Shown here: one piece after another, positions 37,031-54,710 of the stretch | Layout of the letters: each line of letters opens with the position of its first letter | Numbering within the stretch: position 1 is the first letter of the stretch | NCBI GenBank assembly: GCA_949752745.1 | Contig: OX457026.1 | Coordinates: 37,490,723-37,554,722, forward strand | Length of the DNA stretch: 64,000 nt | DNA from: Protula sp. h YS-2021 | Taxonomy: Eukaryota; Annelida; Polychaeta; Sabellida; Serpulidae | Reading direction: 5' to 3' | The notes under the pieces: generated by a model | Told to the model about the DNA's origin: nothing | The model's input: the letters and a program-made list of their open reading frames with translations, nothing else | Databases searched by the model: none | Made by a program: the position numbers and the translations under genes

Positions 37031-37036
37031 GGGGGC
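37031..37036. repeat. Polinton target-site duplication, left copy (GGGGGC)
   Basis: The hexamer GGGGGC precedes the element terminus AGTAGGG and is repeated exactly at 54705-54710. Six-base duplications are diagnostic of Polinton integrase. Confidence 0.9.
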
Positions 37037-37069
37037 AGTAGGGTGAAAACAAGAGTTCTGGGTCACTTG

Positions 37070-37300
37070 ATGACGTCATACTGTCTGGAAGTGACGTCAT
37101 CATGTCTGGACCGGAAGTGCTGTCTAGACCGGAAGTGCTGTCTGGACCGGAAGTGCTGTCTGGAGTGACGTCATCATGTCTGGACCGGAAGTGACGTCAT
37201 GATGTCTGGACCGGAAGTGACGTCATCATGTCTGGACCGGAAGTCATGATAAGCGTTAGGATAGGCGCGACCATGTGTGACGTCATCATGACGTCATACT
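37070..37300. promoter_or_regulatory. CRE/ETS site array in left TIR
   Basis: I count seven perfect TGACGTCA (CRE) palindromes and six ACCGGAAGT (ETS) sites here. Two sites are the fused CCGGAAGTGACGTCA arrangement, known in animals as the ETS-CRE composite element bound by ETS factors with CREB/ATF. The same array is present in mirror image at about 54440-54670. It is likely a host-factor enhancer for the inward-facing genes and might also mark the replication origin ends. Confidence 0.7.
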
Positions 37301-37414
37301 GAGATGATGCTGTCTGGAGTGAAAGTGGTTTGGCCGAGTCAATCAACATGAAGCCAATGAACCCGACCTGTCAATCAGTGTAACCATGGCAACAGAGCCT
37401 AAAAAGGTCGACAA

Positions 37415-37942
37415 CCCCCCCCCTAGGACATACTATGTACCGACCCCCCCCCTAGGACATACTATGTACCGACCCCCCCCTAGGGCATACTATGTACCGA
37501 CCCCCCCCCCTAGGACATACTATGTACCGACCCCCCCCCCCCCGAAATTGTGATTTTTGCATATTTATCCGTTTCAGACGATTCTGAACATTTTGCATTT
37601 TTTGGGTCGACCGACCCCCCCCCCCCTCGAAATTGTGATTTTTGCATATTTATCCGTTTCAGACGATTCTGAACATTTTTCATTTTTTCGACCCCCCCCC
37701 CTCGAAATTGTGATTTTTGCATATTTATCCGTTTCAGACGATTCTGAACATTTTTCATTTTTTCGACCCCCCCCCCTCGAAATTGTGATTTTTGCATATT
37801 TATCCGTTTCAGACGATTCTGAACATTTTTCATTTTTTGGGTCGACCGACCCCCCCCCCTAGGACAGACTATGTACCCCCCCCAGGACAGACTTTGACCC
37901 CCCCCCCCCTAGGACAGACTATGTACCGACCCCCCCCCCCCC
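37415..37942. repeat. C-run / TAGGACATACTATGTACCGA tandem array
   Basis: C-runs of 7 to 15 bases alternate with a spacer of about 20 bp (TAGGACATACTATGTACCGA). Four tandem units of about 75-85 bp beginning CGAAATTGTGATTTTTGCAT lie at 37543, 37628, 37703 and 37778. The complementary strand has regularly spaced G-runs, capable of G-quadruplex formation. The ORFs across it are repeat translations. Confidence 0.85.
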
Positions 37943-37967
37943 AGGAGAACAAACTAAAAAAAAATTG

Positions 37968-38021
37968 TGCTGAATCAGCATGATGAAATCGTTGATTCAG
38001 CATGAAAAAATCGTATATAAG
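37968..38021 (+). promoter_or_regulatory. Promoter: MARE-like palindrome plus TATA box
   Basis: TGCTGAATCAGCA (37968-37980), a second half-copy TTGATTCAGCA, then TATATAAG at 38014-38021, 54 bp before the ATG at 38075. The right end has the equivalent TATATAAG at 54018-54025 (minus) in the same context. Confidence 0.7.
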
Positions 38022-38074
38022 TGTAGTGTCTCGAGGCTTAGGCATCGTCAGACACACCAGCTATCAACATAGAC

Positions 38075-39220
38075 ATGGATGACTTTGAAACAGTTACTTT
38101 TGATGATACATTATTATCGTTGGAAGAGATAGATGCGTTCTTTGAAGACGCTGAAACAGCTTTGAAGGAAGCGTTAGTTGTTCTGCCAGATGTCGCTACA
38201 GTGCAACAAGCAATGCCTCAGGAGGAAGCGTTAAATGCACCATCAGATGTCGCTACAGTGCAACAAGCAATGCCTCAGGATGAAGCGTTAAATGCACCAT
38301 CAGATGTCGCTACAGTGCAACAAGCAATGCCTCAGGAGGAAGCATTAAATGCACCATCAGATGTCGCTGCAGTGCAGCAAGAAATGCCAGATCCTGAGGG
38401 GTCTGACTACCCGTTCTGGGTTGCGAATAGACTTATCAATGGTGACAACTCACAACTAAGTGCAAAGTTAAAAGCGCATCTAGCACATTATGAGGAAAAC
38501 GAAGTGAGTGATGATGATGAGGATTCAGAATTGGACATGTCAAGCGATAATGAGGATTCAGAAGTGGACATGTCAAGCGATGACGGAGAAGACAAACAGC
38601 TGAAATCTAAAATTGAATCGAGTAAGACCATACCTGTTACTGAGGAAGATGTTATAATGTTGAAACGGAACTTTCGAGCAGTACTTCCTCTGATTGATTG
38701 TAACATTTTATGGTGTTTATGTGAAGAAGGCTTTTTCAACAACCACACGTACATGTATCTAACGGAAGAAGTGAATACCGTCATTCAACTCATCTACATG
38801 TTAGAAGGAAACACAGAACATGTTCCGGCGTCAGAGCCAAAGTTCTCCGAAGCTATGACTCAACGTTTCATTCAACTTATTAAAAGTCTTCATGAGGAAC
38901 TTTTTAAGACTTTATCTCTACCGGCGCCAAAGTCTCTGGATGAGGATCGTGAATTCAAATGTGCAAAGGTCATGTTGCATGGTTTCAAATACCTTGAAGA
39001 ACGCATTCATGTGTATGATATGATGGCTTACCTCTATGAAAAAGGACATTTCACTATGTCAATGCTGTTTCAATGGATACTAGGGCATCGGACCCCAGGA
39101 GACTTTTTAGTGATTGTCATGGTACAATCGCTAACAAACGGTTTACCAACAACCTTTCTCGACGGTTTCAATGACATGACTCCGCGATTTTACAAACATC
39201 TCATGAAAACCTACATGTAA
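38075..39220 (+). CDS. Acidic repeat-containing Polinton protein, function unknown
   Basis: 381 residues from ATG 38075, 54 bp after a TATA box. The N-terminus is acidic. Residues of about 50-110 hold three to four copies of a 19-residue repeat (DVATVQQAMPQEEALNAPS). A second acidic run of DDED and DMSS units follows (about 140-170). The C-terminal half (about 185-381) is a predicted-helical globular region with no motif I recognise. The first codons lie at the inner edge of the left TIR and align with the start of the gene at the right end. Regulatory or host-interaction roles are possible but unsupported. Confidence 0.8.
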   Translation: MDDFETVTFDDTLLSLEEIDAFFEDAETALKEALVVLPDVATVQQAMPQEEALNAPSDVATVQQAMPQDEALNAPSDVATVQQAMPQEEALNAPSDVAAVQQEMPDPEGSDYPFWVANRLINGDNSQLSAKLKAHLAHYEENEVSDDDEDSELDMSSDNEDSEVDMSSDDGEDKQLKSKIESSKTIPVTEEDVIMLKRNFRAVLPLIDCNILWCLCEEGFFNNHTYMYLTEEVNTVIQLIYMLEGNTEHVPASEPKFSEAMTQRFIQLIKSLHEELFKTLSLPAPKSLDEDREFKCAKVMLHGFKYLEERIHVYDMMAYLYEKGHFTMSMLFQWILGHRTPGDFLVIVMVQSLTNGLPTTFLDGFNDMTPRFYKHLMKTYM

Positions 39221-39226
39221 CATCTG

Positions 39227-39235
39227 TATAAAAGG
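39227..39235 (+). promoter_or_regulatory. TATA box TATAAAAGG
   Basis: Perfect TATAAAAGG 62 bp upstream of the ATG at 39289 and 7 bp after the stop of the preceding gene. Confidence 0.75.
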
Positions 39236-39288
39236 AGGTAAAACCATCTACAATGTCAACATTGCTTCTTCATCGATGTGTAGAGACC

Positions 39289-39635: not shown

Positions 39636-39639
39636 AAGG
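39608..39639 (+). promoter_or_regulatory. T-MARE palindrome plus TATA box
   Basis: TGCTGACTCAGCA at 39608-39620 is the perfect Maf-recognition (TPA-type) palindrome and contains an AP-1 core. TATAAAAGG follows at 39631, and the next ATG is at 39716. Confidence 0.7.
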
Positions 39640-39715: not shown

Positions 39716-40363
39716 ATGGAGAACAAGACAAGCAACGCAACGCAGCGCAGCAGCAGCTTTAAAATTAGTGCTAACTTAACCATTACTGTGGAGCATGGAG
39801 AATATGGGCCATTTCTACGCATCACACGTGGAGAGAGATGGTGTGCTTATTCACCATCTTTGTGGAAGATTGTATGCCAAAGCTTGAAAAATTTACGCGA
39901 CATTGGCTTCAAACTGTACTTAACGCAAACGAAGTGGCTTGAAGTCATTTCATACTTGGATATGCGCTATGTGAGTTTTGTGCGCACGTCACGGTTTGAA
40001 GGGAAAGAATACACACATCACATCAACATGAATGATGGTGAATGGGAGACACTGCTTCAGGAGATGGACAACATCAACTCAGCCCTATCACCATGTGAGG
40101 AATGTCATGACAAGAAAACGATCATCAAGCTGCAAAAGGATGGTCGGATGAAGGTGTCAAAGCTATCCAAGAAAAGGCTGGCTGAAGTTCAGTTGGAGAA
40201 CATGAACGTACAAAATCAACTTGGACTTACCTGTGACTATTGCGGTGCTTGTGGATATGTGGAGGATTATCATTGCCACTGCCACAAGTATAATTGCAAG
40301 TTGTGTGAACCAAGCAACTTCTGCGGCAAGTGTGGAGTACTTAAAGTCAGTGAAGCAAAGTAA
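39716..40363 (+). CDS. Zn-ribbon protein with PC4-family-like module
   Basis: 215 residues. ATG 39716 is chosen because it lies 85 bp after a TATA box; the in-frame extension upstream overlaps the promoter. Residues of about 12-120 contain alternating beta-like stretches and end in INMNDGEWETLLQEMDNI, the C-terminal Trp-helix signature shared with four genes at 48072-49477. The C-terminus (about 170-215) has many Cys and His residues (CDYCGACGYVEDYHCHCH, CKLCEPSNFCGKCG), probably binding zinc. Nucleic-acid binding is the most likely role (inference). Confidence 0.8.
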   Translation: MENKTSNATQRSSSFKISANLTITVEHGEYGPFLRITRGERWCAYSPSLWKIVCQSLKNLRDIGFKLYLTQTKWLEVISYLDMRYVSFVRTSRFEGKEYTHHINMNDGEWETLLQEMDNINSALSPCEECHDKKTIIKLQKDGRMKVSKLSKKRLAEVQLENMNVQNQLGLTCDYCGACGYVEDYHCHCHKYNCKLCEPSNFCGKCGVLKVSEAK

Positions 40364-40387
40364 AAGCCCACAAGACACTGAAACAAG

Positions 40388-40720
40388 ATGGACGCATGTT
40401 TTAAAAATGCTTATATTGACTTGATGATTGCTAAACTTGCTTGCTGTGGCACTCCAGACTATCAACTTTATCATTTGGATGCTTTTTGGGATGTTGTACA
40501 TCATAGTCTTGATGTGATTGAACTGCATTCAAGATTTCTTGGAGAATGTCATAAAACTGGAATAGAAGAAGATCCTGACTTTGACTTTGATTCTGCACTT
40601 TATTCTGCTCGCACTGATGTGGAAGTATATTTCACCGTGGTTGATCATTTGAGAGATTGTTGTAAAGAAGAAGAGGAAACCGAGCAGCTTTATCAGGTAA
40701 GTTATAAAAACCTTTTTTAA
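40388..40720 (+). CDS. Small Polinton protein, unknown
   Basis: 110 residues from ATG 40388, 24 bp after the preceding stop. Mostly alpha-helical pattern, acidic in the middle and end (EEDPDFDFDSALYSARTDV, CCKEEEETEQLYQ). CAG/GTAAGT at 40694-40702 is a perfect splice donor in phase 0. A spliced form joining to a TTATTACAG acceptor at 40873 would replace the last seven residues by about seven others, so the exact C-terminus is uncertain. Similar N-terminal pattern to the frameshifted gene at 39289. Confidence 0.65.
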   Translation: MDACFKNAYIDLMIAKLACCGTPDYQLYHLDAFWDVVHHSLDVIELHSRFLGECHKTGIEEDPDFDFDSALYSARTDVEVYFTVVDHLRDCCKEEEETEQLYQVSYKNLF

Positions 40721-40912: not shown

Positions 40913-41350
40913 ATGAAGAATCTTGTACTATTCAGCGGTCATAAGGACGTTCTTTCAAATATGTTTCCAACACGACTTGAAAAGTATGGACATGTGTTCA
41001 ACTCAAGTGAAGCGTTGTATCAATATGAGAAAGCAGTGTTTCATCACCGTCAAGATATTGCTTCAGCCATTGCTTCATGTAGAAATGGATATGAAGCAAA
41101 ACGTATTGCTAAAGTGATAAAGCCATGTCCTTTATGGCATACAGTGAAGAGAAGCAAAATGCAAGATGTTTTACAAGTCAAACTGGATCAGTGTGTATTG
41201 TTTCGCAACAAGTTGAAAGAATGTAAAGACAAAACTTTAGTTGAAGCAACGTATGATCATTGGTGGGGAGCTGGTGTGAAACAAGTGTCATCTAGATATC
41301 CTGGTCAGAATATCATGGGAAAGTTGTTAGAACTGTTGTGTGAGGGTTAG
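40913..41350 (+). CDS. NADAR / YbiA-like (N-glycosidase superfamily) protein
   Basis: 145 residues from ATG 40913. The whole length fits the NADAR (YbiA-like) domain: a start LVLFSGHKDVLSNMFPTRL (usual F.G....SNF.P), then VFNSSEALYQYEKAVFHHRQ (usual F.S.EH.YQ..KA..F.D), an A..I......A..I...IKPC segment, WHTVKRSKMQDVLQVKLDQC (usual W...R...M...L..K..QN) and LVEATYDHWWGAGV (usual LVEA...D..WG.G). Family members act on N-glycosidic bonds, including riboflavin-pathway intermediates and ADP-ribose attached to nucleic acid. In a virus-like element this could be counter-defence against NAD+ or ADP-ribosyl signalling (inference). Not part of the core Polinton gene set as I know it. Confidence 0.8.
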   Translation: MKNLVLFSGHKDVLSNMFPTRLEKYGHVFNSSEALYQYEKAVFHHRQDIASAIASCRNGYEAKRIAKVIKPCPLWHTVKRSKMQDVLQVKLDQCVLFRNKLKECKDKTLVEATYDHWWGAGVKQVSSRYPGQNIMGKLLELLCEG

Positions 41351-41451: not shown

Positions 41452-41784
41452 ATGGCGGACATGACACTGAGACAATATATTGTGCAAAAAGCTTATTGTG
41501 AAGAAATGTTATCCGCTGTAAAAAAGTTTGCATATTTAGTCTGTCCTGCTTGTCAACATGAAGAGTGTCAAGAACATACTTGTCATTTTGCATCTGTTTA
41601 TACATATTGGAATGAAGCTAAATATTACATGCATTTAGATAAAGTGTTAGAGAATGCAAATCAACGTTGTGAGAAATATGGTGTAGATGCTATTACATTG
41701 GATGAACTCAGTCATTGGTTAGTGTTCATTGAAGACCAATGGTCTCCAGTTATTCATACCATTGTATCTATACTTGATTTGTAA
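41452..41784 (+). CDS. Small Cys/His-containing Polinton protein, unknown
   Basis: 110 residues from ATG 41452 (ACAATGG context); the frame is open 18 bp upstream but without ATG. It contains VCPACQHEECQEHTCHF, a plausible zinc-binding cluster, in a mostly helical protein. No domain recognised. AATAAA at 41844-41849, which overlaps the next promoter, could be its polyadenylation signal. Confidence 0.65.
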   Translation: MADMTLRQYIVQKAYCEEMLSAVKKFAYLVCPACQHEECQEHTCHFASVYTYWNEAKYYMHLDKVLENANQRCEKYGVDAITLDELSHWLVFIEDQWSPVIHTIVSILDL

Positions 41785-41889: not shown

Positions 41890-43002
41890 ATGTCGACGTG
41901 GAAAGACTACTTGACCAATATTTACTTCAAACCTGGACAGCCTGGAGCATTTGCTGGTCCTTACAAACTGTATCACATCTTACGAAAACATAATCAACCA
42001 GTCACACAGTCACAAGTGAAGAAATGGTTGCAGGATCAAGATGCTTTTAGTTTACTCCAACCTGTCAAATACAGGTTCAAAAGACAACGTGTCATTACAC
42101 GTGGTATTGATGACATGTGGGATATTGATTTGGCTGATATGGGAAACATAGCTCCCTATAATGATGACATACGCTTTTTACTCATTGTCATTGATGTGTT
42201 TTCCAAATATGTCTGGGTACAGCCAATACCTAATAAATCACATACCAGCGTCATACAAGCTTTCCAAAAGATTTTTCATGACACACGACGAAGACCGCGA
42301 ACTCTAAGGTCTGATAAAGGAACAGAATTTAAAAACAGATGGGTAAAAGCATTTTTGAAGAAAGAAGGCATTCATGCTTATACCACAAAGAATGAAACCA
42401 AAGCCAACTTTGCTGAAAGAGTCATTCGTACTCTAAAGGGAATGATGTATCGGTATTTTCTACATAATCAAACTTACCGTTACTTAGACATTCTTCCAGA
42501 CTTGGTGTACAATTACAACCATAGACCTCATGGTTCTCTTCCTAATAAATATGCTCCAGCCGAGATTCGTAAAGACAACGAATCAAAAGTGTGGAAGTAT
42601 ATGTATGTCGACAAACTGAAATTGAAACCTAAGAAGAAGAAGAAGAAGAAGTACAAATTTAACATTGGTGATCATGTTCGCATTTCTCACATTAAATATG
42701 TGTTTCAACGGGATTATCACATCAAATGGACGCAAGAAGTCTTCATTGTCACACATCGTTGTAAGAAGCAAGGAATACATTTATATCGTGTGAAAGACTT
42801 TTTAGACGAAGATATTGATGGTCATTTCTATGAAGAAGAACTGCAGAAAGTGACCAAAGATATTGAATCTATTTATAGAATTGAAAAAGTCTTGAAAACA
42901 CGTAAAAGACGAGGAGGAGGTGTGAAAGAATTATTTGTCAAGTGGTTAGGTTGGCCAAACAAGTTTAACAGTTGGGTGAAAGAAACAGACATTCAACAAT
43001 GA
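41890..43002 (+). CDS. Retroviral-type (rve) integrase with C-terminal chromodomain
   Basis: 370 residues. ATG 41890 (ACCATGT, 44 bp after TATA) is preferred over an upstream TTG in the promoter. Residues of about 20-75 form the zinc-less N-terminal region. The RNase-H-fold catalytic core has Asp80 (WDIDLADM), Asp142 (LRSDKGTEF) and Glu176 (NFAERVIRTLK). A Lys-rich SH3-like segment (about 250-320) follows, and a chromodomain at about 322-368 (ESIYRIEKVLKTR ... LFVKWLGWPNKFNSWV). This is the standard Polinton integrase, responsible for the 6-bp duplication seen. The chromodomain probably directs it to modified histones. Its TGA overlaps the ATPase ATG (ATGA). Confidence 0.95.
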   Translation: MSTWKDYLTNIYFKPGQPGAFAGPYKLYHILRKHNQPVTQSQVKKWLQDQDAFSLLQPVKYRFKRQRVITRGIDDMWDIDLADMGNIAPYNDDIRFLLIVIDVFSKYVWVQPIPNKSHTSVIQAFQKIFHDTRRRPRTLRSDKGTEFKNRWVKAFLKKEGIHAYTTKNETKANFAERVIRTLKGMMYRYFLHNQTYRYLDILPDLVYNYNHRPHGSLPNKYAPAEIRKDNESKVWKYMYVDKLKLKPKKKKKKKYKFNIGDHVRISHIKYVFQRDYHIKWTQEVFIVTHRCKKQGIHLYRVKDFLDEDIDGHFYEEELQKVTKDIESIYRIEKVLKTRKRRGGGVKELFVKWLGWPNKFNSWVKETDIQQ

Positions 43003-43658
43003 AGCATCCATTTACATGTTTAGTCTCTGGACCTACAGGCAGTGGCAAAACGTCTCTGGTGAAGGAAATTCTAGAACAAAAGTTGATTAAACCCTCTCCA
43101 AAAAGCATTTTATGGCTCTATGCAGCAGATCAGCCTTTGTACAAGGGAATGAAAGGCGTGAAATTTTACCAAGGCATTCCAGATGACATTGAAGAGCGTT
43201 TTAACCCGAAGAAACCAAACTTACTTATCATTGATGACTTAATGACGAAATGCCATAGTGATGAGCGTATGACACGTCTCTTTAGTGTTGGCAGCAGTCA
43301 TCAAAATCTAAGCATTATTTTTATTGTGCATAATTTATTCCATCATGGGAAAGAGATGCGAAATATTAGTTTGAATACACATTATATCATTCTGTTTAAA
43401 AATCCGAGAGACAGTCAACAAATTAGTACATTGGCGCGGCAAATGTATCCTAGAAGATCTCAATTTCTCATAGAAGCCTATCAAGATGCTACTAGCAAAC
43501 CTCATGGTTATTTATTCATTGATTTAAAACCAAAGACAAATGATCAACTACGTATTCGTACAGGCATTTTACCAAAAGATACACATTATGTATATATTGA
43601 TAAAGCAGTGTATGAACAAGAACCAAGTCATTTAACCATTCGCAGTCAAGATGTCTAA
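42999..43658 (+). CDS. FtsK/HerA-type genome-packaging ATPase
   Basis: 219 residues from ATG 42999, overlapping the integrase stop by 4 bp. Walker A is GPTGSGKT (residues 11-18) and Walker B is NLLIIDDLM (about 75-82); a sensor-like IIFIVHNLFHHGKEMR follows. Length and motifs match the Polinton/PLV A32-like packaging ATPase, which pumps DNA into capsids. Located directly upstream of capsid genes, as in most Polintons. Confidence 0.95.
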   Translation: MKHPFTCLVSGPTGSGKTSLVKEILEQKLIKPSPKSILWLYAADQPLYKGMKGVKFYQGIPDDIEERFNPKKPNLLIIDDLMTKCHSDERMTRLFSVGSSHQNLSIIFIVHNLFHHGKEMRNISLNTHYIILFKNPRDSQQISTLARQMYPRRSQFLIEAYQDATSKPHGYLFIDLKPKTNDQLRIRTGILPKDTHYVYIDKAVYEQEPSHLTIRSQDV

Positions 43659-43977
43659 ACGTATTCGAGCGAACCAGCCGTTTCTTCACTTGCTTGCACG
43701 CAGTGGGCCTAAACGACGTAAATCCTTGCTACAGCAAGCTACAAAGGAGGAATTAACAAGCTTGTTTGAAATTTGTTTGAATATATTGCAAGGACATTTA
43801 CCCTTAAGCTCAAAACGGTTTAAGGAATTTAAACGTGAACGCCATACGCTACGTACTCTAGCAGATAAGAAGATATCCCTTCGACGAAAAAAGAAGTTGA
43901 TTAATCAGAAAGGAGGATTCATTGGAGTTATTGCTAGATTGGCATTGCCCTTGTTAGCCAAACTGCTGCTAAAATGA
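43651..43977 (+). CDS. Small basic Polinton protein with QKGGF motif
   Basis: 108 residues; ATG 43651 overlaps the ATPase end by 8 bp. Very basic, helical, ending in LINQKGGFIGVIARLALPLL and a hydrophobic tail. Polintons commonly carry such a protein next to the ATPase. The QKGG/F step fits an adenain-type cleavage site (x-x-G-G/x), which would release a hydrophobic C-terminal peptide with a possible membrane-active role in the virion (inference). Confidence 0.75.
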   Translation: MSKRIRANQPFLHLLARSGPKRRKSLLQQATKEELTSLFEICLNILQGHLPLSSKRFKEFKRERHTLRTLADKKISLRRKKKLINQKGGFIGVIARLALPLLAKLLLK

Positions 43978-44552
43978 AACATACGATGAAAATGGTCCTC
44001 ATTCCTGAATATGAATATAAAATGTTGTTAGAAAAGAAGGGTAAAGATGGTGAAATCAAAACGAAAGTGAATAAACTTTTACGTGGGAAGCGAACGCGTG
44101 AAAAGGTTATTGAAATGTCTCAACTTCTTGGCCGTCATTTACGAACAAGTCAGTCTAGGCAGCAAAAGCCCTCATCATCATCACCACCTGAAAAGCCAGA
44201 AAAGCTAGTGTTAAGTCATTTTCAACCTATCTATCATGGAAAAGTACTACAACTTTTAGCCGAACTGAAGAAATATGGTACGACATGGTCAGAGAAGAAT
44301 GAACTTGTGTTTAAAACGGGCGATATTATAGCAAATTCCAACATGGTTGATTTGATGAAAGAAGCATTGGTGGCGACAAGAAGAAAAGAACGAGTCAAAC
44401 CACCACATGGCTGGCATCCGTTTATCCAGGAAATTGTAGATGCGAATATTCCAAAAACAATGTTTAGTAAAAAGACCACTCGTGACGACATTACAACAGA
44501 AATGAAACAACGTCAACAAAGACAGTTTCCTGAAGGATGGGAAAATTTTTAA
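43974..44552 (+). CDS. Conserved Polinton accessory protein
   Basis: 192 residues; ATG 43974 overlaps the upstream stop (ATGA). N-terminal VLIPEYEYKMLL, a Ser/Pro linker near 65-80, then a conserved-looking C-terminal domain (YHGKVLQLLAELKKYGTTWS, ELVFKTGDIIANSNMVDLMK, PPHGWHPFIQEI). The arrangement of WS..NEL.....I..SN..DL and PxGW.xF is one I associate with a widespread Polinton protein of unknown function encoded beside the ATPase and capsid genes, probably a virion component. Confidence 0.75.
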   Translation: MKHTMKMVLIPEYEYKMLLEKKGKDGEIKTKVNKLLRGKRTREKVIEMSQLLGRHLRTSQSRQQKPSSSSPPEKPEKLVLSHFQPIYHGKVLQLLAELKKYGTTWSEKNELVFKTGDIIANSNMVDLMKEALVATRRKERVKPPHGWHPFIQEIVDANIPKTMFSKKTTRDDITTEMKQRQQRQFPEGWENF

Positions 44553-45865: not shown

Positions 45866-47239
45866 ATGTCTCTCATTCATAATCATTCGTGTGAATGTAG
45901 TCTTTCTCCATTGGAATGGTTTCACGTACCACCAACGCAAACTGCTGTAGAGAAAAGTTATAATGTTGACTATCAACCACTTACAAGCATTAGAGAAGGC
46001 GCTCCAATAGAATTCTACATTCCTGCGAGTACAGAAGAATATCTGGATTTAAAGAACAGCAAACTTCATATTGTATGTCGCATTCTAAAGGCTGATGGAA
46101 CAGCGTGTGGCGCAGATGATAATGTCTCTTGCATCAATGATGTGTTTAATGGGTTATGGTCTAATATTGAATTGTTTCTGAATGATCGTTTGGTTTCGCA
46201 TAGCAACAATACTCATGGTTATACCAGCATTATCTCTCATCTCATCCATGATTCGGAAGAAAGTCTGCATTCTGAGCGCTCTATGCGTCTCATGTACAAG
46301 GATACTGCTGGGTCAATGAATAGTCATGAGGTGAAAAGACCTAATCATGAACAATATGTATCCGGGTTTCATGTCAATGCCGACGGTGGTGACTTGGCTG
46401 AGCAAGGCAATAATGGCTTACATCATCGTTATTTGCATACTCGTCTTAGCCGTGATGTTATGCTCGCAGGTGGTTTAAGGATAGATTTGTTTGAGCAGGA
46501 TCGTTATCTTCCGAATGGCATCAGTTTGAAATTGCGTTTCCATAGACAAAAAGATGACTATGTATTGATGGCTGTAAATAATACCTATAAGGTAGAAGTG
46601 AAAGAGGCATTTTTAACCATTCGCAAAGTGAGGGTGAGTCCAGGTATTCAGTTAGGACATGCAGATGCATTGATGAAAAGTCCTGCCAAGATCATCATCA
46701 CTAGAAAAGAATGTAAAGTCTTGGCCATTCCAGCAGGATTTCAGTCTTTTGTGAAAGATAACATCTTTTTGGGTCAATTACCAAATCGTATTGTCATTGG
46801 TCTGGTTCATAATGAAGCTTTTGGTGGATCAGTATTGAGGAATCCATACAATTTTGATCATTTTAATCTGGACTATATGCAACTGTACACGGATGGTGAA
46901 CCAGTTCTATCCAAACCTCTCAAGCTTGACATTACACAGAACAAATACCTGAACGCTTTTGAAACGCTTTACAAATCGTTTGATCGGTTGAATGGTGAGA
47001 AAAGTTCCATTATAAAACGGGAAGATTGGCCTAGAGGTTATGCTTTATTTTCGTTTGACTTAACACCGGATTATGATGGTGATGATCATTTCCCCCTGAT
47101 CAAGCATGGGAATTTGCGGCTAGAAATGAACTTTGCTAGGGCTTTGCAACCTACAATAAATGTCATTGTCTATGCTGAATTTGACAACATTATTGAGATC
47201 AGTGCCAATCGCAGCATCCAATTCGACTACCAGTCATGA
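45866..47239 (+). CDS. Major capsid protein (double jelly-roll)
   Basis: 457 residues from ATG 45866, 10 bp after the preceding stop. The early VPPTQTAVEKSYNVDYQPLT and then APIEFYIPASTEEYLDLKNS are hallmark segments of Polinton hexon-type MCPs; NGLWSNIELFLNDRLVS and the C-terminal FDLTPDYDGDDHFPLIKHGN, LRLEMNFARALQPTINVIVY are equally characteristic. Trimers should build a pseudo-T=25-type icosahedral shell as in related viruses (family knowledge). Full length with no break. Confidence 0.95.
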   Translation: MSLIHNHSCECSLSPLEWFHVPPTQTAVEKSYNVDYQPLTSIREGAPIEFYIPASTEEYLDLKNSKLHIVCRILKADGTACGADDNVSCINDVFNGLWSNIELFLNDRLVSHSNNTHGYTSIISHLIHDSEESLHSERSMRLMYKDTAGSMNSHEVKRPNHEQYVSGFHVNADGGDLAEQGNNGLHHRYLHTRLSRDVMLAGGLRIDLFEQDRYLPNGISLKLRFHRQKDDYVLMAVNNTYKVEVKEAFLTIRKVRVSPGIQLGHADALMKSPAKIIITRKECKVLAIPAGFQSFVKDNIFLGQLPNRIVIGLVHNEAFGGSVLRNPYNFDHFNLDYMQLYTDGEPVLSKPLKLDITQNKYLNAFETLYKSFDRLNGEKSSIIKREDWPRGYALFSFDLTPDYDGDDHFPLIKHGNLRLEMNFARALQPTINVIVYAEFDNIIEISANRSIQFDYQS

Positions 47240-47673
47240 ACACGAAGCAGATTGATGCCATATTGAGTCATGATGTCATGACCAAAGACTTGTTTCAAGG
47301 CGTGTTTGCCATGGATCAGTTACCGTCTTTACAACGCGGCGCCTATGTGATCAACACAGACGATCAAGATGAACCAGGAGAACATTGGGTGGCAGTGTAT
47401 TATGATAAAGACCCTGTGGAATATTTTGACTCTTATGGACTGTTCCCTCTCGATGATCGTTTAAACATGTTTTTAAGAAATGACTATATGTATAATTCTA
47501 TATCATTACAAACGCCAATATCATCGTCATGTGGTTTTTATTGTGTATATTATATATTGCATAGAGCTCGAGGTCAGAGTATGTTTGATATTGTGAATAT
47601 ATTAAAAAGAAAGGATGGTGATTTTATTGTAAAGGATTTTGTATATAGACATTATAAACCATTGTTTTATTAA
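47236..47673 (+). CDS. Adenain-like maturation cysteine protease
   Basis: 145 residues, ATG 47236 overlapping the MCP stop (ATGA). The catalytic set is visible in the C48/adenain order: His50 (EHWVAVYYD), Asp65 (EYFDSYG), Gln92 (SLQTP) and Cys99 (SSCGFYCVYY). It should cleave virion precursor proteins at GG-type sites, such as those seen in the products of 43651 and 45514. Last gene of the rightward block; a polyadenylation signal follows at 47786. Confidence 0.95.
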   Translation: MNTKQIDAILSHDVMTKDLFQGVFAMDQLPSLQRGAYVINTDDQDEPGEHWVAVYYDKDPVEYFDSYGLFPLDDRLNMFLRNDYMYNSISLQTPISSSCGFYCVYYILHRARGQSMFDIVNILKRKDGDFIVKDFVYRHYKPLFY

Positions 47674-47817: not shown

Positions 47818-48080
47818 TGTTTATTGTGTTCTATTTACAAATTCTTAACTACAAACACTCTTTACAAAGTTTACAAACACTATTTACAAAGTTTACAAAC
47901 ACTATTTACAAACTCTTAACTACAAACGCTATTTACACTATTTACAAATTCTTAACTACAAATTCTATGTACACTATTTACAAACTTTTATTTACACTAT
48001 TTACACTATTTACAAAATTCTTAACTACAAACTCTTAACTACAAAGTCTATTTACACTATTTACAAACTTTTTATTTACA
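47818..48080. repeat. Low-complexity tandem repeat between convergent blocks
   Basis: Imperfect copies of TTTACAAACTCTTAACTACA and CTATTTACACTATTTACAAA. It separates the convergent rightward and leftward gene blocks. On the minus strand AATAAA at 48071-48076 overlaps the stop of the gene at 48072-48449. The plus-strand ORF at 47817 is repeat translation. Confidence 0.8.
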
Positions 48081-48449
48081 AACACATTCATTTTTCAATA
48101 CATTCATCAATGAATACCATTCATTAGAATCTAAATTGATATAGGTATCATAGACATTACATCCATGTTTGTAAATGCTATGAAAGCTCACATAACACAC
48201 ATCACCAAACTTTATCACTTTAACAGTTACATGTTCAGACAGTTTCAGTTCATATCCTTCTTCTTCTAAGTCAATGTCCATCACACGCATAGGTTGTGTC
48301 AGCTCAATGGATTTGGTGCCTCGTGTAAGCCATATTTCTGTTTCTTTGAATTCAAGCGTTAGGTTCTTTCCAATCCAATGCTTGTAACAACGCGTTCCAT
48401 TCCACTGTGTTGAGGGTGATGTAATCATAGTTTTCTGTAAGCTCGTCAT
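48072..48449 (-). CDS. PC4-family-like paralog 1
   Basis: 125 residues from ATG 48449. It overlaps the upstream gene by 98 bp in another frame, so a downstream start is possible, but the conserved-looking region begins about residue 28 (KNLTLEFKETEIWLTRGTK). It ends YINLDSNEWYSLMNVLKNE, the shared Trp-helix. NLT.....I.LTRG resembles the start of the module in the gene at 39716, supporting common ancestry. The stop codon lies inside AATAAA. Likely nucleic-acid binding (inference). Confidence 0.7.
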   Translation of the reverse strand: MTSLQKTMITSPSTQWNGTRCYKHWIGKNLTLEFKETEIWLTRGTKSIELTQPMRVMDIDLEEEGYELKLSEHVTVKVIKFGDVCYVSFHSIYKHGCNVYDTYINLDSNEWYSLMNVLKNECVCK

Positions 48450-48693
48450 ATTGGCGAAATTGTATAAACACGTCTAAGCAGTTCTCAGTCACACGCACTT
48501 CTAATTCATTTGAGACTGTCAGGAGAAAGCCAGGTATCCTAAACTTCTCTAGATGGTCTTTCAACACGGATTGGTCATCAAGTGATAGGACGAGATACTG
48601 TCCAAAATGTCTTAGCACAATGTCATCATATTCGTTTCTCAGATATGAGAACCCATGCGTAATTGGTTTATATTCCGTTAAAAAGTCTTCCAT
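48352..48693 (-). CDS. PC4-family-like paralog 2
   Basis: 113 residues from ATG 48693. Beta-rich alternating pattern (DDIVLRHFGQYLVLSLDDQS, GFLLTVSNELEVRVTENCLD), ending YITLNTVEWNALLQALDW, the same Trp-helix as its neighbours. It overlaps the next gene. Weak similarity overall; grouping rests on the C-terminal signature and position. Confidence 0.7.
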   Translation of the reverse strand: MEDFLTEYKPITHGFSYLRNEYDDIVLRHFGQYLVLSLDDQSVLKDHLEKFRIPGFLLTVSNELEVRVTENCLDVFIQFRQYDELTENYDYITLNTVEWNALLQALDWKEPNA

Positions 48694-48748: not shown

Positions 48749-49120
48749 TTATGCTCGCAAGATGGCGAAGAGTGGATGTTGTATCACTTCTAGGAATCGT
48801 AAGACTGCGCGCCAGTTCTTGATATCAAAGATGATCAAATCTGTATATGGTGTATCTGGCACAACTCCCTTATAATCCTCTGGATAATCCTGTAAAAGAT
48901 TTCTACAGATTTCTACACGTATGTTAGAATCATATTCAGCCACCGTCACTTCCACTTTATTTTCAAGTCTGCGTTTAAACCCAGCTTCAAGCGGTATGTT
49001 TTTAAAGTCTTTCCACACTTCAGGTTTAAACCGATGATAACTTGTCTTAGAATCTAGTATCACTTCATTCCTCTCATTGACAGTAAGGTAAACACCACCG
49101 TTCAGCATGAGTGCATTCAT
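48749..49120 (-). CDS. PC4-family-like paralog 3
   Basis: 123 residues from ATG 49120, 12 bp after the stop of the PC4 gene. YLTVNERNEVILDSKTSYHR and FKPEVW, then GFKRRLENKVEVTVAEYDSN and finally IIFDIKNWRAVLRFLEVI. The order (strand, W, GFK strand, strand, Trp-helix) parallels the gene at 39716 (SPSLWK, GFKLYLTQTKWLEV, DGEWETLLQEM). Confidence 0.7.
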   Translation of the reverse strand: MNALMLNGGVYLTVNERNEVILDSKTSYHRFKPEVWKDFKNIPLEAGFKRRLENKVEVTVAEYDSNIRVEICRNLLQDYPEDYKGVVPDTPYTDLIIFDIKNWRAVLRFLEVIQHPLFAILRA

Positions 49121-49132: not shown

Positions 49133-49477
49133 TTATGACTTGTCGTCTTGTCTGCGAAGCCTTTTATCCACTTCTTTCACCTGCTTCTTCAGCATTTTCC
49201 ATTCAGGTATTGTCAGCAAAATTCCCTTTTTCGTTGGACGGTTTTTTCCAGTCCCCTCATCTCTGAGGTATTTGCGAATGTTTACCACGCCTTCATTACT
49301 TTGTTTCATAATCTTGATATACTTTCCATTGCCTAGAGAAAGCATTCCATCCCACGACTGTGGTGTTGGTGCTATCTCCACTTTTAATTTCTTAATGGTA
49401 GTATCAGGATGTTTCACTTTCATGTCTTTGACTGTATCAGCAAGAGTATCCATATCCGTTGGTGCAGATCTTTTCAT
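49133..49477 (-). CDS. PC4/Sub1-like transcription coactivator / ssDNA-binding protein
   Basis: 114 residues from ATG 49477, 55 bp after TATATAAG (49532-49539, minus), a box that overlaps the PolB stop codon. Residues of about 45-105 fit the PC4 domain: LSLGNGKYIKIMKQSNEGVV, NIRKYLRDEGTGKNRPTKKG and ILLTIPEWKMLKKQVKEVDK match the order F.L....Y..V......V.IR.Y......PT.KGI.L....W..L...I..ID. PC4 folds bind single-stranded DNA and act in transcription. Here it may coat the displaced strand in protein-primed replication or activate late genes (inference). Confidence 0.8.
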   Translation of the reverse strand: MKRSAPTDMDTLADTVKDMKVKHPDTTIKKLKVEIAPTPQSWDGMLSLGNGKYIKIMKQSNEGVVNIRKYLRDEGTGKNRPTKKGILLTIPEWKMLKKQVKEVDKRLRRQDDKS

Positions 49478-49531: not shown

Positions 49532-49539
49532 CTTATATA
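49532..49539 (-). promoter_or_regulatory. TATA box for the PC4-like gene
   Basis: TATATAAG on the minus strand, 55 bp before ATG 49477, overlapping the terminal codon of PolB. Confidence 0.65.
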
Positions 49540-52500
49540 CTGTAATGCCCATGCGCCAAAGTGGAATAGCCATCACTCATCACATATCGCTTGTCATCAA
49601 AGGGAGAGAGAGCCACTTTCCTCAACTTCTCCGAGAAGATCTGGTGGTTATGACTTCGAATGATGTGTCCTGTAGTCATCGTTTGCGTTTGGTTGAACAC
49701 ACTGTCTCTATACTGCTGATGTTTCATCCGTCTTTGACACGCGCGAGTGATGCCTTTGGCCGTACGTTTTTCTTTCCCACCATACATCATACTATACATT
49801 TTCGGTCGAAGTCCAACAAACTCTTCAATGGGAATGCCCGCCGTCTCATCTTTCATTTTCCCAAGCACTTTCTTGTTCACGTTGGAATGTAGGAAATGAT
49901 CTGGCGGATAGTCACTTGTGTCGAACAAGTCAGCATCTTCCTGCATGTCTTTGTATATATCTTCCGTTTCTATGTCATAACATAGACTGTCGGTGTCGCT
50001 GAACAAGAGTTTGGCGTTGGGATACTTGGTCATGATGTAGTTGTAATGAAAGTGGAACATGAGCACCTTGCTGAGGTCGAGAATGGTGAACCCAACTTGA
50101 ATGGGTTTATCCAGAAGCAGATCCACTTTGCGCAAATGTACCGCGGTCAAATCTTCGTTGAAAATTCTAAATTTGTGGAAGGAAGGTTTGGCTACAAGTT
50201 TCTTGAACCGCTTTTCCTGGTGAACAAGTTCCACATTCATGCGCTTTCTTACATTTTCCATGGTTTTGCCAAACACAGAGTTGTTCATCAGTTTGAAAAA
50301 GTCTTTCTCAAACGGGTTCTTCGCCAACTTTCTCTTTTCCGTGTTCAAGGAGATGTATTTTGCCAACCATTTGCTCTGTGCAAACATGATGGCACGGTGC
50401 ACCTTCGTGACTTTCAATCCCAGTGAGACATATTGCTGTAAATTTCTATAATGAAGCACATATTTCTTCTTGTCACACAAGTTGGGAATGAGCTTTTCAC
50501 TAGGTTTGCCTTTCATGTTTAGATCTTTCCGTAGCTTCTGACTATGTTTTGACAATTCTCCCACTTTCACACATTTCCGTTCTGGAGCCACTGGATAGTG
50601 ATTATGATGATCATGGATTGAATATGGGTATTCCAAATCCACTTCTAAAATGTATCCAATCTCGTCATCTTCATCCACATCCATAAAGTCAATGGATTCT
50701 GGCTCGCTCACCCACATAAATCCACTTTCCGGCATGCTTTGCGACATAGCCCTGCCATACAAGTTGTTTGCATCCAGGTAAGTCAAGTAGTTGGTTGGTT
50801 TCGTGGGATCGTAATCTGGTACGTAGGGGTTATTTGCTTTCGCATACTTGTGTGTGATGACAGATATTCCTCCACGTAAACCTTGTTCAACCATTTGGTA
50901 CATGTCAATGTCGTTGATCAATTCCAATTTCACCTTTGTCGCTTTCAACATGGCATCCCACGACAGTCCTGGCGCTGTATAGTAGTGAGCAGGATCCAAT
51001 TCATACGTGTTGAGACATACGTGACGAAAGTTTTCAAACACGTCAGCCAGCAGCAACACATCTGATTTCAGGTACAAGTCATGGTATTCGCCAAATGTAG
51101 TACAGTGGAATGTCTCCCACACCTTCTGCGCATGCGCATAATCCTCATCGCTAATGTCTTCTTCACTGAGTAGACTGTAAAACTTGTCCTTGGACGGCAG
51201 TTGTGTTTCAGCAAACTTGGATGGCTCATCCACGTAATCATAAGGGTACACTCCCTTTCTCAACAGTAAATCTTGTTGGTCGCTATCGTGAATGTGTGAC
51301 GTCATGTGATAAAAGTTGTCTTTCCCTTCTGCTGCCAGGTTGGAGACCAACTTCTGTAGAGAAGTACTCATGAACTGAAAGCTGTCTGTAAATTTCAGAT
51401 TGCTCATGGTGAATGCAATATATTTCTCAACGGTGTTGGGAATGACTGTAATCCTTTCGTTTTTGAACTTTCCAATTTCTTCCATGATCAAATGGCTGTC
51501 ATAGCCTCGTAAATTGTGGAAAAACACAGGAATGATGAAAGAATCTTCAACATCCTGCTGATCTTTTCGAAATCGGAATTGCAAATTGCATTCACTATGT
51601 GCAGCTCCGCGGTATTTGCCATTGATATGGTCATGATCTCTCACATGATCTGCTCCTAGAGGCTCATGACAAATGTAGCAATCTGTGGCGTTCTTATAAT
51701 GCTCTTCATCTTCATGAGTCATCACCATTTTCTTTGGCTGTAGCAAGCCATGCACAATACGATCACGTTCATTCACCATATGGTCTAAAAAGACTTTCAC
51801 AGCATTGTCTCCTCGATATACGACTGGCGCACGTGTATCATACTGGCTCACAACCACATAGGCAAAGCTGTTTGGACGATGATGCTGATACTTGTCTCCT
51901 TCATGCTTTTTCGTGAAACATTCAAAGTCTGCATAAATGACAAACGGCGCTCGCTGTTGTTTGGCTACATTCTTGAACTTGATGAAGGGTTCCTTGGGAA
52001 ATGATAAACGTTGTGCGCCATGCTTGCCACACACTTCACGATGCTTGTCTAACAGATCTTGCCGCATAAACCCATGAAGACAGTTGAAACAATAAAAAGT
52101 TGCACCATTATACTTTGATCGATAAGCCATCAGTCTGCTGAAATTCTTGATGAGGCAGTAATGTCTTGTCTTGTCATTACTAATCAAAAGCAAGTTGATT
52201 TCTCTGGCGCTGTTGGCGCTGGTGTTTCGACTGAGTTGTATGGGAACAACGACATCATGTTCATATCCAAACACATTGATAGAAACATCATTCTCCTTTT
52301 CAAATTTTGGAATGTCTGTAATCGGTGTGGGAAATGTCATGCCTTCCACCTTCAATTCGTTCTCAAATGGTGTGTAATGACTCACGCGGCAAGGACTGTT
52401 TGTTGAAGGGTGAAGGTGAGCCAATACAGACCATAAGAAGCACTTGTTGTCTTTATTCTGAATGTTTAACACCGCCTTTGTATTCTTTACTTTCTTCGGT

Positions 52501-53216
52501 AGTGGGATAAAACTGCTTGCTTCCAATGGTGCTGACGTCGCTGTATGCACTTCAATGAATAATATGTTATCCAACACCCAGCCAGAACCTTGTCGCTCAT
52601 GTTCATCAAACCTGGTAAATAATTCTTTATAGGCTTCTGGCAAGTCCTTCTCAATATCTGTTGGATTGTATGCTGCATACGTTGGACTACTGATGAAGGC
52701 ATTATCCACTTGTTCTACCATCACGCCTTCAACATTTGGTGTCATTTTCTTGAAGCGTGCATGCACGACAATGTACCATTTCATACCACGGTTTAACGTT
52801 TCTAGCAAATGTCTCTTGATTCGGTTCTCTTGTTGTCGCATTTCAAGTAGCAAATCTGATCCATCTTCAGGCTCAAACCGTCTTTCCTGCGCGTTTTCAC
52901 CAAGACTCACTCTTCTGCCTCTGCCTACTTGTCCTGTCTCTTTCTTTCTTTGTTCTTCATGAGACACATTTTCCATCTCATCACATGCGTGTGTCTCAAA
53001 TGCATCCAAAGATGAAAATATCTTGGCGCATTTACAGCAGAGGACTGGATCAGGTCTGTCAACACCATCTTGTACGGTCTTTCGTCTCTTGGCTTCAATC
53101 TGCTCAACAAGCTCTTCATGAGCACGTTTCATCCTAGCTGGTTTGCATGTATGTGTCACGAACACTTCCAGAGATGGAAATGTCACATCACAATCATGAC
53201 AGTAGACTGGTGCCAT
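49533..53216 (-). CDS. Protein-primed family B DNA polymerase
   Basis: 1,227 residues. ATG 53216 is chosen because it lies 59 bp after TATAAAAGG (53275-53283); an upstream in-frame GTG falls next to the promoter. Two N-terminal Cys/His fingers (about 5-24, 60-78), a third finger (about 374-396), an exonuclease domain (ExoI FVIYADFEC about 425; ExoII FFHNLRGYDSHL about 565; ExoIII YHDLYLKSDVLLLAD about 711), an HNH/endonuclease-VII-like insert (CYICHEPLGADHVRDHDH about 512), then polymerase motifs A (YLDANNLYG about 813), B (KLMNNSVFGKTMENV about 975), C (FSDTDS about 1074) and KMYS (about 1140). A complete Polinton replicase, with no break. It is expected to replicate the linear element from protein-capped ends. 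Confidence 0.95.
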   Translation of the reverse strand: MAPVYCHDCDVTFPSLEVFVTHTCKPARMKRAHEELVEQIEAKRRKTVQDGVDRPDPVLCCKCAKIFSSLDAFETHACDEMENVSHEEQRKKETGQVGRGRRVSLGENAQERRFEPEDGSDLLLEMRQQENRIKRHLLETLNRGMKWYIVVHARFKKMTPNVEGVMVEQVDNAFISSPTYAAYNPTDIEKDLPEAYKELFTRFDEHERQGSGWVLDNILFIEVHTATSAPLEASSFIPLPKKVKNTKAVLNIQNKDNKCFLWSVLAHLHPSTNSPCRVSHYTPFENELKVEGMTFPTPITDIPKFEKENDVSINVFGYEHDVVVPIQLSRNTSANSAREINLLLISNDKTRHYCLIKNFSRLMAYRSKYNGATFYCFNCLHGFMRQDLLDKHREVCGKHGAQRLSFPKEPFIKFKNVAKQQRAPFVIYADFECFTKKHEGDKYQHHRPNSFAYVVVSQYDTRAPVVYRGDNAVKVFLDHMVNERDRIVHGLLQPKKMVMTHEDEEHYKNATDCYICHEPLGADHVRDHDHINGKYRGAAHSECNLQFRFRKDQQDVEDSFIIPVFFHNLRGYDSHLIMEEIGKFKNERITVIPNTVEKYIAFTMSNLKFTDSFQFMSTSLQKLVSNLAAEGKDNFYHMTSHIHDSDQQDLLLRKGVYPYDYVDEPSKFAETQLPSKDKFYSLLSEEDISDEDYAHAQKVWETFHCTTFGEYHDLYLKSDVLLLADVFENFRHVCLNTYELDPAHYYTAPGLSWDAMLKATKVKLELINDIDMYQMVEQGLRGGISVITHKYAKANNPYVPDYDPTKPTNYLTYLDANNLYGRAMSQSMPESGFMWVSEPESIDFMDVDEDDEIGYILEVDLEYPYSIHDHHNHYPVAPERKCVKVGELSKHSQKLRKDLNMKGKPSEKLIPNLCDKKKYVLHYRNLQQYVSLGLKVTKVHRAIMFAQSKWLAKYISLNTEKRKLAKNPFEKDFFKLMNNSVFGKTMENVRKRMNVELVHQEKRFKKLVAKPSFHKFRIFNEDLTAVHLRKVDLLLDKPIQVGFTILDLSKVLMFHFHYNYIMTKYPNAKLLFSDTDSLCYDIETEDIYKDMQEDADLFDTSDYPPDHFLHSNVNKKVLGKMKDETAGIPIEEFVGLRPKMYSMMYGGKEKRTAKGITRACQRRMKHQQYRDSVFNQTQTMTTGHIIRSHNHQIFSEKLRKVALSPFDDKRYVMSDGYSTLAHGHYSI

Positions 53217-53274
53217 CGTTGTTGCTTCTTCAACTGCTGGAACTGAAATGAAGTAAAATATACGTTTCACTCTT

Positions 53275-53310
53275 CCTTTTATACCACTTCAATGGTGTGT
53301 TGACTCAGCA
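53275..53310 (-). promoter_or_regulatory. PolB promoter: TATA box and near-MARE
   Basis: On the minus strand TATAAAAGG (53275-53283) lies 59 bp before the ATG; TGTTGACTCAGCA (plus strand, 53298-53310), one base from the T-MARE palindrome, sits 15 bp further upstream. Confidence 0.7.
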
Positions 53311-53603
53311 GAATGTATCACTAGTTGACTAGTTGACATGTTTCACTCATGCTTTTATGCTACTTCCATGTAATCAAAATATGGTGTGTAACTTTTCAAA
53401 CTTGTTCCAAAATGTTAAAATTGCTGACTCAGCAGAATTTTACTTGTGTATATGAATGTCTTACTTACAGTTGTGAAGTTGTACAGCTGCACTGCTACAC
53501 AGCAGAGACATCTAGCGGTGAAGTTAATTGGTCTGTCAAATGGTATTCATCCGCCAAATGGTATTCATCCGCCAACTAGACCTGAAATGTGATAAAATGT
53601 ATT

Positions 53604-53639
<36 letters not shown>

Positions 53640-53702
53640 TGTTTTGCTTCATTTCATAATATAGGATGGCCCTTAAAAGGGCCCGAAATATTTTAGTATA
53701 TA
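53311..53702. promoter_or_regulatory. Regulatory gap with T-MARE and (CA)n
   Basis: It contains a perfect TGCTGACTCAGCA (53422-53434), a duplicated AATGGTATTCATCCGCCAA segment (about 53536-53575) and a (CA)n microsatellite (53608-53634). No supportable gene; the plus-strand ORF at 53349 runs through these control elements. Confidence 0.5.
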
Positions 53703-53978
53703 TCAGCAGCAGTTATGGGGTTGTCCCTCATATTCCAACCACACTTGACACTTGCAGTATCGTTGAGTCAGTGTTACTATGCGGTTGTTCCACATAAATG
53801 TAATTACTACGTCAGGCTTCACTGCAGTGATCTGAGTTGGAAATTGTAGCACCTCCTCCAAAGCAAATGTAATATCAGCTGCTTCAGCTTCATCACGCAT
53901 ATTTACCCAGATGCAAACAGATTCATTCGCTTGAAACGCTGTTAAGTCATCAATGATGATAGCTGGTGTGTTATCCAT
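53703..53978 (-). CDS. Small TIR-adjacent Polinton protein, unknown
   Basis: 91 residues from ATG 53978, 40 bp after TATATAAG (54018-54025, minus). Its first codons (MDNTPAIIIDDLTAF) lie in the inner, diverged part of the right TIR and align at DNA level with the start of the gene at 38075. The remainder (VCIWVNMRDEAEAADITFAL, VVITFMWNNRIVTLTQRYCK) is beta-rich. It ends in Cys residues. Possibly a distant member of the beta-rich paralog family, but it lacks the Trp-helix. Confidence 0.65.
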   Translation of the reverse strand: MDNTPAIIIDDLTAFQANESVCIWVNMRDEAEAADITFALEEVLQFPTQITAVKPDVVITFMWNNRIVTLTQRYCKCQVWLEYEGQPHNCC

Positions 53979-54704
53979 GATGTGTCTGACAATGTCTCTA
54001 AGCCTTGAGACACCACACTTATATAGGATTTTATCATGCTGATTCGACAAAAATTTTTGTTGCTCTCCTGGGGGGGGGGGGGGGGGTCGGTACATAGTCT
54101 GTCCTAGGGGGGGGGGGGTCGGTACATAGTCTGTCCTAGGGGGGGGGGTCGGTACATAGTCTGTCCTAGGGGGGGGGGGGGTCGGTACATAGTCTGTCCT
54201 GGGGGGGGTCGGTACATAGTATGTCCTAGGGGGGGGGGTCGGTACATAGTATGCCCTGGGGGGGGGGTCGGTACATAGTATGTCCTAGGGGGGGGGTCGG
54301 TACATAGTATGTCCTAGGGGGGGGGGTTGTCGACCTTTTTAGGCTCTGTTGCCATGGTTACACTGATTGACAGGTCGGGTTCATTGGCTTCATGTTGATT
54401 GACTCGGCCAAACCACTTTCACTCCAGACAGCATCATCTCAGTATGACGTCATGATGACGTCACACATGGTCGCGCCTATCCTAACGCTTATCATGACTT
54501 CCGGTCCAGACATGATGACGTCACTTCCGGTCCAGACATCATGACGTCACTTCCGGTCCAGACATGATGACGTCACTCCAGACAGCACTTCCGGTCCAGA
54601 CAGCACTTCCGGTCTAGACAGCACTTCCGGTCCAGACATGATGACGTCACTTCCAGACAGTATGACGTCATCAAGTGACCCAGAACTCTTGTTTTCACCC
54701 TACT
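53950..54704 (-). repeat. Polinton right terminal inverted repeat
   Basis: The outer 378 bp (54327-54704) are the reverse complement of 37037-37414 with no difference I could find. Inside are about eight G-run/TCGGTACATAGT(A/C)TGTCCTAG units (54069-54326) and an inner diverged part (53950-54068) holding TATATAAG and the start of the 53703-53978 gene. Confidence 0.9.
54440..54670. promoter_or_regulatory. CRE/ETS site array in right TIR
   Basis: Mirror image of 37070-37300: the same TGACGTCA palindromes and ACTTCCGGT (ETS, reverse) sites, including fused TGACGTCACTTCCGG. Confidence 0.7.
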
Positions 54705-54710
54705 GGGGGC
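54705..54710. repeat. Polinton target-site duplication, right copy (GGGGGC)
   Basis: Exact repeat of 37031-37036. The reconstructed empty site reads AAATATGTTA, GGGGGC, TTACATCTCA. Confidence 0.9.

Follow-up and report, generated by a model that had tools for sequence, protein, structure and literature searches.

The 64,000-nt stretch of Protula sp. h YS-2021 DNA analyzed here (the window), which lies on contig 3 of the 863-Mb, 218-contig host assembly, probably carries an integrated Polinton/Maverick genome, most adintovirus-like in character, that belongs to a recombining and recently spread family with at least 224 loci. We put this reading, including the steps of the mechanism proposed below, at a probability of about 0.72. 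The recent burst, rather than rarity, is the main point: where the first-pass annotation had seen a single candidate live virus, we see a recombining amplification of recent date with unusual cargo.

The element occupies positions 37037-54704 (17,668 bp), with the termini AGTAGGGTGA...TCACCCTACT, and is delimited by the following features.

37031..37036, no strand: target site duplication (TSD), left copy GGGGGC, perfect 6 bp
37037..37423, plus strand: outer terminal inverted repeat (TIR), left, 387 bp identical to the right arm
37414..37946, no strand: inner TIR region, left, with poly-C/29-32-bp and 75-bp tandem arrays
54077..54327, no strand: inner TIR region, right, with a poly-G/30-bp tandem array
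54318..54704, minus strand: outer TIR, right, counterpart of the left arm
54705..54710, no strand: TSD, right copy GGGGGC, perfect 6 bp

The GGGGGC hexamer reported earlier on both sides was confirmed as a perfect 6-bp TSD; the coordinates given with it, 37031..54710, include both TSD copies. The outer TIRs are identical, as had been claimed, over a length of 387 bp and not 378 bp, and the many TIR differences that would have spoken against a young insertion were not found. Beyond 387 bp the arms diverge in poly-C lengths, one base and repeat units. A chance origin of the TIR is ruled out by the 387-bp identity of the outer arms. The combination of TIR and TSD is likewise beyond chance, as all nine family TIR pairs in the host genome (window included) have matching TSDs.

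These pairs came from a TIR query, in which 40 ends were scored of 1940 first-look candidates; 18 of them make nine pairs 17.1-18.0 kb apart, and 22 are without a listed partner. With the element's NADAR domain protein as a query, the best 150 of 2819 candidate loci showed 97-100% identity, spanning all 145 residues in 149 cases and 144 in one, and a stop was present in one locus only. Thirty NADAR loci that were fetched (one being the window) align to the element over approximately 3.4 kb at 97.2-100%. For the major capsid protein (MCP), the best 93 of 7629 candidate loci were identical in 457/457 residues and had no stops. Both lists run from the best locus down and prove many loci, not the share of copies that is intact; combined, they contain at least 224 distinct loci with a NADAR or MCP gene, which rules out a lone provirus. 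At 18/93 MCP loci, a listed NADAR gene lies 4.9-5.0 kb upstream in the same orientation, from which approximately 775 elements are estimated (93 x 150 / 18) if the lists are treated as independent samples, a rough figure, given that the lists are not random and that the MCP list ends at contig 8. Two complete and identical MCP genes were also found 3.2 kb apart on one strand (C1:82902676 and C1:82905859), which suggests a rearranged or nested copy.

Taken by itself, the window, with its perfect TSD, identical outer TIRs and open named reading frames, would agree with one recent capture, in the germ line, of a virus that is otherwise exogenous. The family loci in the assembly contradict this, and the left TIRs of the eight other paired copies show, besides indels, 0 to 9 differences from that of the window over 340 bases; we regard a single capture as highly improbable. 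The search for other copies and their divergence, proposed with the first-pass annotation, upheld the youth of the insertion.

The copies examined at base level are of low age, and their genes are open almost throughout. These are the nine paired copies, and the route by which they were selected favors young ones. Their TSDs (GGGGGC, TATGTG (twice), TAGTAGG, AATCTA, ACACCT, GAAGTC, AACTTA, TCTAAC) are all perfect, eight being of 6 bp and one of 7 bp, with eight different sequences. The two arms within a copy differ by 1 mismatch in 9 x 340 bp, and TIRs of different copies by a mean of 4.9 per 340 bases and a maximum of 9 (indels not counted). If the neutral rate is taken as 1-5 per billion sites per year, 1 mismatch in 3060 corresponds to a mean age of ~30,000-160,000 years. 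The earlier view of a full-length, very young insertion was thus borne out by the perfect TSD, identical outer TIRs and open reading frames. A decayed fossil is ruled out, as the window reading frames are open and the genes of the base-level copies are open with one exception.

The bases following AGTAGGGT occur in six forms among the nine copies, and the form is identical at both ends of each copy. This would follow if one end templates the other during replication by pairing of displaced-strand ends; post-insertion gene conversion would explain it equally. Apparent youth could come from homogenization after insertion (gene conversion of TIRs or of copies) or from collapse or duplication of repeats by the assembler, and conversion would likewise yield arms that are identical within copies though the copies differ. 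Yet the TSDs are perfect in 9/9 copies and of eight sequences, and the copies are unlike one another in length, in flanks and in mosaic pattern. In addition, one further copy (C9:2.36) has arms only ~92% alike, showing that homogenization is not general. We consider this explanation unlikely.

That copy belongs to a counter-check sample of ten NADAR loci, taken as every tenth row (31 to 121) of the best-150 list, in which it gave TIR matches at both ends. Three of the ten loci have matching 6-bp TSDs and TIRs strongly unlike those of the window; compared over 340 bp, their own arms show 0/26, 0/0 and 1/63 mismatches/gap columns. Within two of the counter-check copies, inverted sharing is 74-78% alike. 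The end stretches of several of these copies (L098-L101, L104, L106, L107 and L110) also share inverted sequence with one another.

The open reading frames (ORFs) of the element are as follows.

38075..39220, plus strand: 381-aa ORF, acidic, with 57-bp (19-aa) tandem repeats, without family match
39716..40363, plus strand: 215-aa ORF with a Cys-rich C-terminus; its N-terminal part is a paralogue of the Pur-alpha/Whirly-like 48072 protein
40388..40720, plus strand: 110-aa ORF without family
40913..41350, plus strand: NADAR domain protein, 145 aa (Pfam PF08719, phrog_1017, conserved residues)
41452..41784, plus strand: 110-aa ORF without family
41890..43002, plus strand: integrase, 370 aa, rve core and C-terminal chromodomain (Pfam; D, D, E motif patterns)
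42999..43658, plus strand: A32/IVa2-type packaging ATPase, 219 aa (Pfam; Walker A/B patterns)
43651..43977, plus strand: 108-aa basic ORF with hydrophobic tail
43974..44552, plus strand: 192-aa ORF
44759..45517, plus strand: putative penton/minor capsid protein, 252 aa (position alone)
45514..45855, plus strand: 113-aa basic ORF, by composition presumably core/membrane-active-like
45866..47239, plus strand: MCP, double jelly-roll, 457 aa (structure model)
47236..47673, plus strand: putative adenovirus-type cysteine protease, 145 aa (Peptidase_C5, motif patterns)
48072..48449, minus strand: predicted Pur-alpha/Whirly-fold protein b, 125 aa (structure model)
48352..48693, minus strand: Pur-alpha/Whirly-like paralogue c, 113 aa (sequence comparison with paralogues)
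48749..49120, minus strand: weaker Pur-alpha/Whirly-like paralogue d, 123 aa (sequence comparison with paralogues)
49133..49477, minus strand: PC4/p15 domain protein, 114 aa (Pfam PF02229, PDB 6ycs)
49533..53216, minus strand: putative PolB, 1227 aa, first ATG at 53216 (exonuclease and A/B/C motifs, Endonuclease VII-like insert, OTU-like motif)
53703..54095, minus strand: 130-aa ORF

For 13 genes, sequences from up to nine copies were compared, counting only full-length in-frame matches; this gave 5/9 copies for the ORF at 40388, 8/9 for that at 41452, 4/9 for that at 45514, 7/9 for the 48072 gene and 9/9 for the others. For PolB the compared part was limited to 1,191 bases, and the comparison left out the ORFs at 38075, 39716, 43651, 43974 and 53703 and the protease. 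The counted copies were open, save for the ORF at 45514 in copy C4a (a frameshift and 3 stops), and the MCP, putative penton and ATPase genes were open in 9/9. In the MCP, the integrase and the compared part of PolB, amino-acid changes are below the neutral expectation. Normalized ratios of amino-acid to silent change were 0.12 for the PolB part, 0.14 for PC4, 0.17 for the integrase, 0.21 for the MCP, 0.46 for the putative penton and 0 for the ORF at 45514 (0 amino-acid vs. 5 silent changes in 4 copies), each with p ≤ 0.0033, uncorrected for 13 tests. No significant constraint was detected in this comparison for the ATPase (0.33, p 0.062), NADAR (0.45, p 0.083), the 48072 gene (1.14, 7 copies), the ORFs at 40388 and 41452, or the 48352 and 48749 genes. 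A NADAR ratio on the 30 best loci (0.34, p 0.064) was not used as evidence, as these loci had been picked by protein score. From a 31-sequence comparison, sequences were dropped for gaps in the ORF at 39716 (10), the ORF at 40388 (1) and the 5′ part of the integrase (23), together with 1 truncated ORF at 40388; one of the 21 kept sequences of the ORF at 39716 has a stop. The putative penton gene (44759-45517) is the most variable of the 13, differing from the window by up to 7.1% of bases, which might be as expected of a receptor-binding protein.

Of 450 site pairs formed between MCP and NADAR, 378 carry all four combinations and are thus incompatible, and the two genes group the copies differently; such pairs amount to 0/435 within MCP and 22/105 within NADAR. 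The incompatible MCP/NADAR pairs indicate that genomes have recombined and that the copies are mosaics. At the same time, 26/30 informative MCP sites fall on one split, so that the constraint lies on that branch and not necessarily in the last burst.

The constraint on capsid genes makes particle-borne spread likely. As an alternative, amplification could have been purely intracellular, a transposon burst in which capsid genes were carried along and are intact only through youth; many near-identical copies in one genome do resemble transposon amplification. Several observations weigh against our preferred reading. The MCP is 100% identical at the best 93 loci, so recent selection is invisible there, and no relatives were confirmed among IMG/VR viral contigs scanned with the integrase, an MCP profile, PolB, NADAR and the TIR end. 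In the counter-check, locus C1:109.19 showed one end only and no end was located in 5/10 loci. Loci L102, L103, L108, L109, L112 and L113 have a 97-99% identical NADAR protein and other TIR types (AGTAGGGTAGAAACGACAGT, AGTAGGGTATAAACGACAGT, AGTAGGGTGAAAACGTTGGT). A purely intracellular burst, however, does not sit well with MCP, putative penton and ATPase genes open in 9/9 copies, with MCP and putative penton changes fewer than neutral, or with copies that are mosaics of several lineages and not a star from one master; we regard it as rather doubtful. Also less likely than not is a stronger version of the preferred reading, an ongoing particle-borne epidemic of hundreds of intact recombining proviruses with their own Pur-alpha/Whirly/PC4 set for strand-displacement replication and a NADAR protein that erases host-defense ADP-ribose. 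The likelihoods given to these readings overlap, since particle-borne spread could be accompanied by homogenization or by intracellular copying. For the question of whether animal Polintons still form particles, a genome rich in young, open copies offers a natural setting in which to look for encapsidated DNA and RNA.

The first-pass annotation had described unbroken virion and replication genes. All ORFs named there are indeed open; the identities are less even. The integrase matches rve (PF00665, E 8.2e-11, above the Pfam cut-off) and, at its C-terminus, the chromodomain (PF00385, E 6.9e-8). The packaging ATPase matches PF04665 (E 5e-7) and PF02456 (E 1.1e-6), both above cut-off. The protease falls just under it (PF00770, Peptidase_C5, E 3.5e-4, 20.7 bits vs. 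21.3), with motif patterns present. A structure model backs the double-jelly-roll fold of the MCP, the best viral match of the model being a Cotesia sesamiae Mombasa bracovirus protein (29% identity). For the putative penton, Pfam gave no meaningful match, and the label comes from position only. Neither Pfam nor PDB sequence search recognized a polymerase in PolB; its exonuclease and A/B/C motifs were located by patterns. The OTU-like motif of PolB was seen by pattern only, with no Pfam OTU match. PHROGs gave 0 families for the MCP, putative penton and protease, and an Rfam search 0 matches at the gathering score.

The NADAR domain is well supported (PF08719, E 1.8e-18, 67.7 bits vs. a cut-off of 35.1), and the protein matches phrog_1017 (E 3.5e-30). 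Its phage relatives, with a match in 344 phage records, are ~30% identical, and an alignment showed that E33, K40, E111, D115 and W118 are common to two phage NADARs. In a protein database search it gave 15 candidates, none reaching E 0.001. According to the available text of PMC11543638, E43 and K50 of an oomycete NADAR contact ADP-ribose, and E125 is the YbiA-type glutamate; by spacing, in our own position matching, E33/K40 correspond to E43/K50 and E111 to E125. The protein is a predicted ADP-ribosyl hydrolase with conserved active-site residues, judging from sequence, and resembles the NADAR/YbiA hydrolases in domain family, active-site residues and stand-alone form, as far as these are described in the available texts of PMC11543638, PMC11125620 and PMC9503650. 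The virus survey in the last of these names phages, nucleocytoplasmic large DNA viruses and RNA viruses as NADAR carriers in its available text, and its main text is without the words Polinton, Maverick, adintovirus and virophage, whereas the carrier here is a Polinton. No literature pairing Polinton or adintovirus with NADAR was found in a search that left subscription papers mostly outside. With NADAR in a Polinton, ADP-ribose counter-defense would reach one more class of DNA viruses of animals.

Four Pur-alpha/Whirly-like paralogues are encoded (the N-terminal part of the 39716 protein, 48072, 48352 and 48749), of which 48072 was modeled. The model, built from 4 sequences with a predicted local distance difference test score (pLDDT) of 81, has a beta-sheet-plus-helix repeat fold; its Foldseek E was not below 0.001, and Pur-alpha, Whirly and PC4 structures are only 7-14% identical to the protein in the structural comparison. 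Searched as a profile, the four paralogues together matched 1 protein. The PC4 protein is assigned by PF02229 (E 2.3e-9) and PDB 6ycs (E 1.6e-7). Sequence comparison of PC4 with the Pur-like paralogues gave no link (z -0.8 to 0.8 in 4 pairs), and the model would connect them by fold alone. The Pur-like proteins are predicted, from this modeled fold, to bind single-stranded DNA. We know of no candidate single-strand binding protein for Polinton replication, and the Pur-like/PC4 set would furnish one. A search for literature pairing Polinton with the transcriptional coactivator PC4, again with subscription papers mostly outside it, found none.

In the mechanism that we propose, the integrase inserts linear DNA at varied targets, as the 6-bp (once 7-bp) duplications in the anatomy of the copies show. 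PolB, judging from its family, would copy the linear genome from its ends and displace one strand. The displaced strand may be coated by the PC4 and Pur-alpha/Whirly-like proteins of the element, and its two ends could pair; such pairing would keep the TIRs of a copy identical while copies differ, which is the pattern observed. Genomes do recombine with one another, as the mosaics attest. The ATPase would probably package the genome into double-jelly-roll capsids for germ-line reinfection, a step suggested by capsid-gene constraint. From its fold and residues, the NADAR protein would strip ADP-ribose from guanine bases or nucleotides as counter-defense.

Elements of this kind are known; no description of such a load in an animal, of a NADAR gene or of a Pur-like set was found in the available text of the literature compared. 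Barreat & Katzourakis 2021 (PMC8097293) report, in the text available, 134 intact Mavericks in 17 species, with ≤38 intact per genome, and call larger sets of up to at least 287 defective. Like the element, with its putative PolB, the vertebrate Mavericks described there have TIRs and 6-bp TSDs, keep ATPase, integrase, capsid and protein-primed PolB genes open, and show purifying selection on core genes; the AGT-type motif at their ends is similar to, though not the same as, AGTAGGGT. In contrast, we count at least 224 NADAR/MCP loci of one family, with nine checked as full elements, and the available text has no mention of NADAR or Pur-like genes. Adintoviruses (PMC11071296, available text) share the animal association, the rve integrase with C-terminal chromodomain and a hexon-like MCP, and possibly the OTU-like PolB motif, a likeness drawn by definition and not by reference sequences. 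They differ from the element in its NADAR, PC4 and Pur-like cargo; the words NADAR and PC4 are absent from the main text of that paper. Bellas and colleagues (PMC10120064, available text) describe tens to thousands of integrated viruses of 14-40 kb per protist genome. The load of such protist Polinton-like viruses and Trichomonas Mavericks is similarly high, whereas here the host is an animal and the family a single tight one.

Elsewhere in the window, a Tc5-type transposase DNA-binding domain lies at 4456-4755 on the minus strand (E 2.6e-11). The ORFs at 21112-23336, minus strand, three of which are without Pfam match, are taken by us to resemble a DIRS-type retroelement with tyrosine recombinase. 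A 368-aa host ORF at 60826-61932 carries a SOCS box at its C-terminus (E 1.2e-4, slightly under the cut-off), which points to an animal host. At 17921-18418 there is a G-rich tandem array whose units measure 44 to 95 bp.

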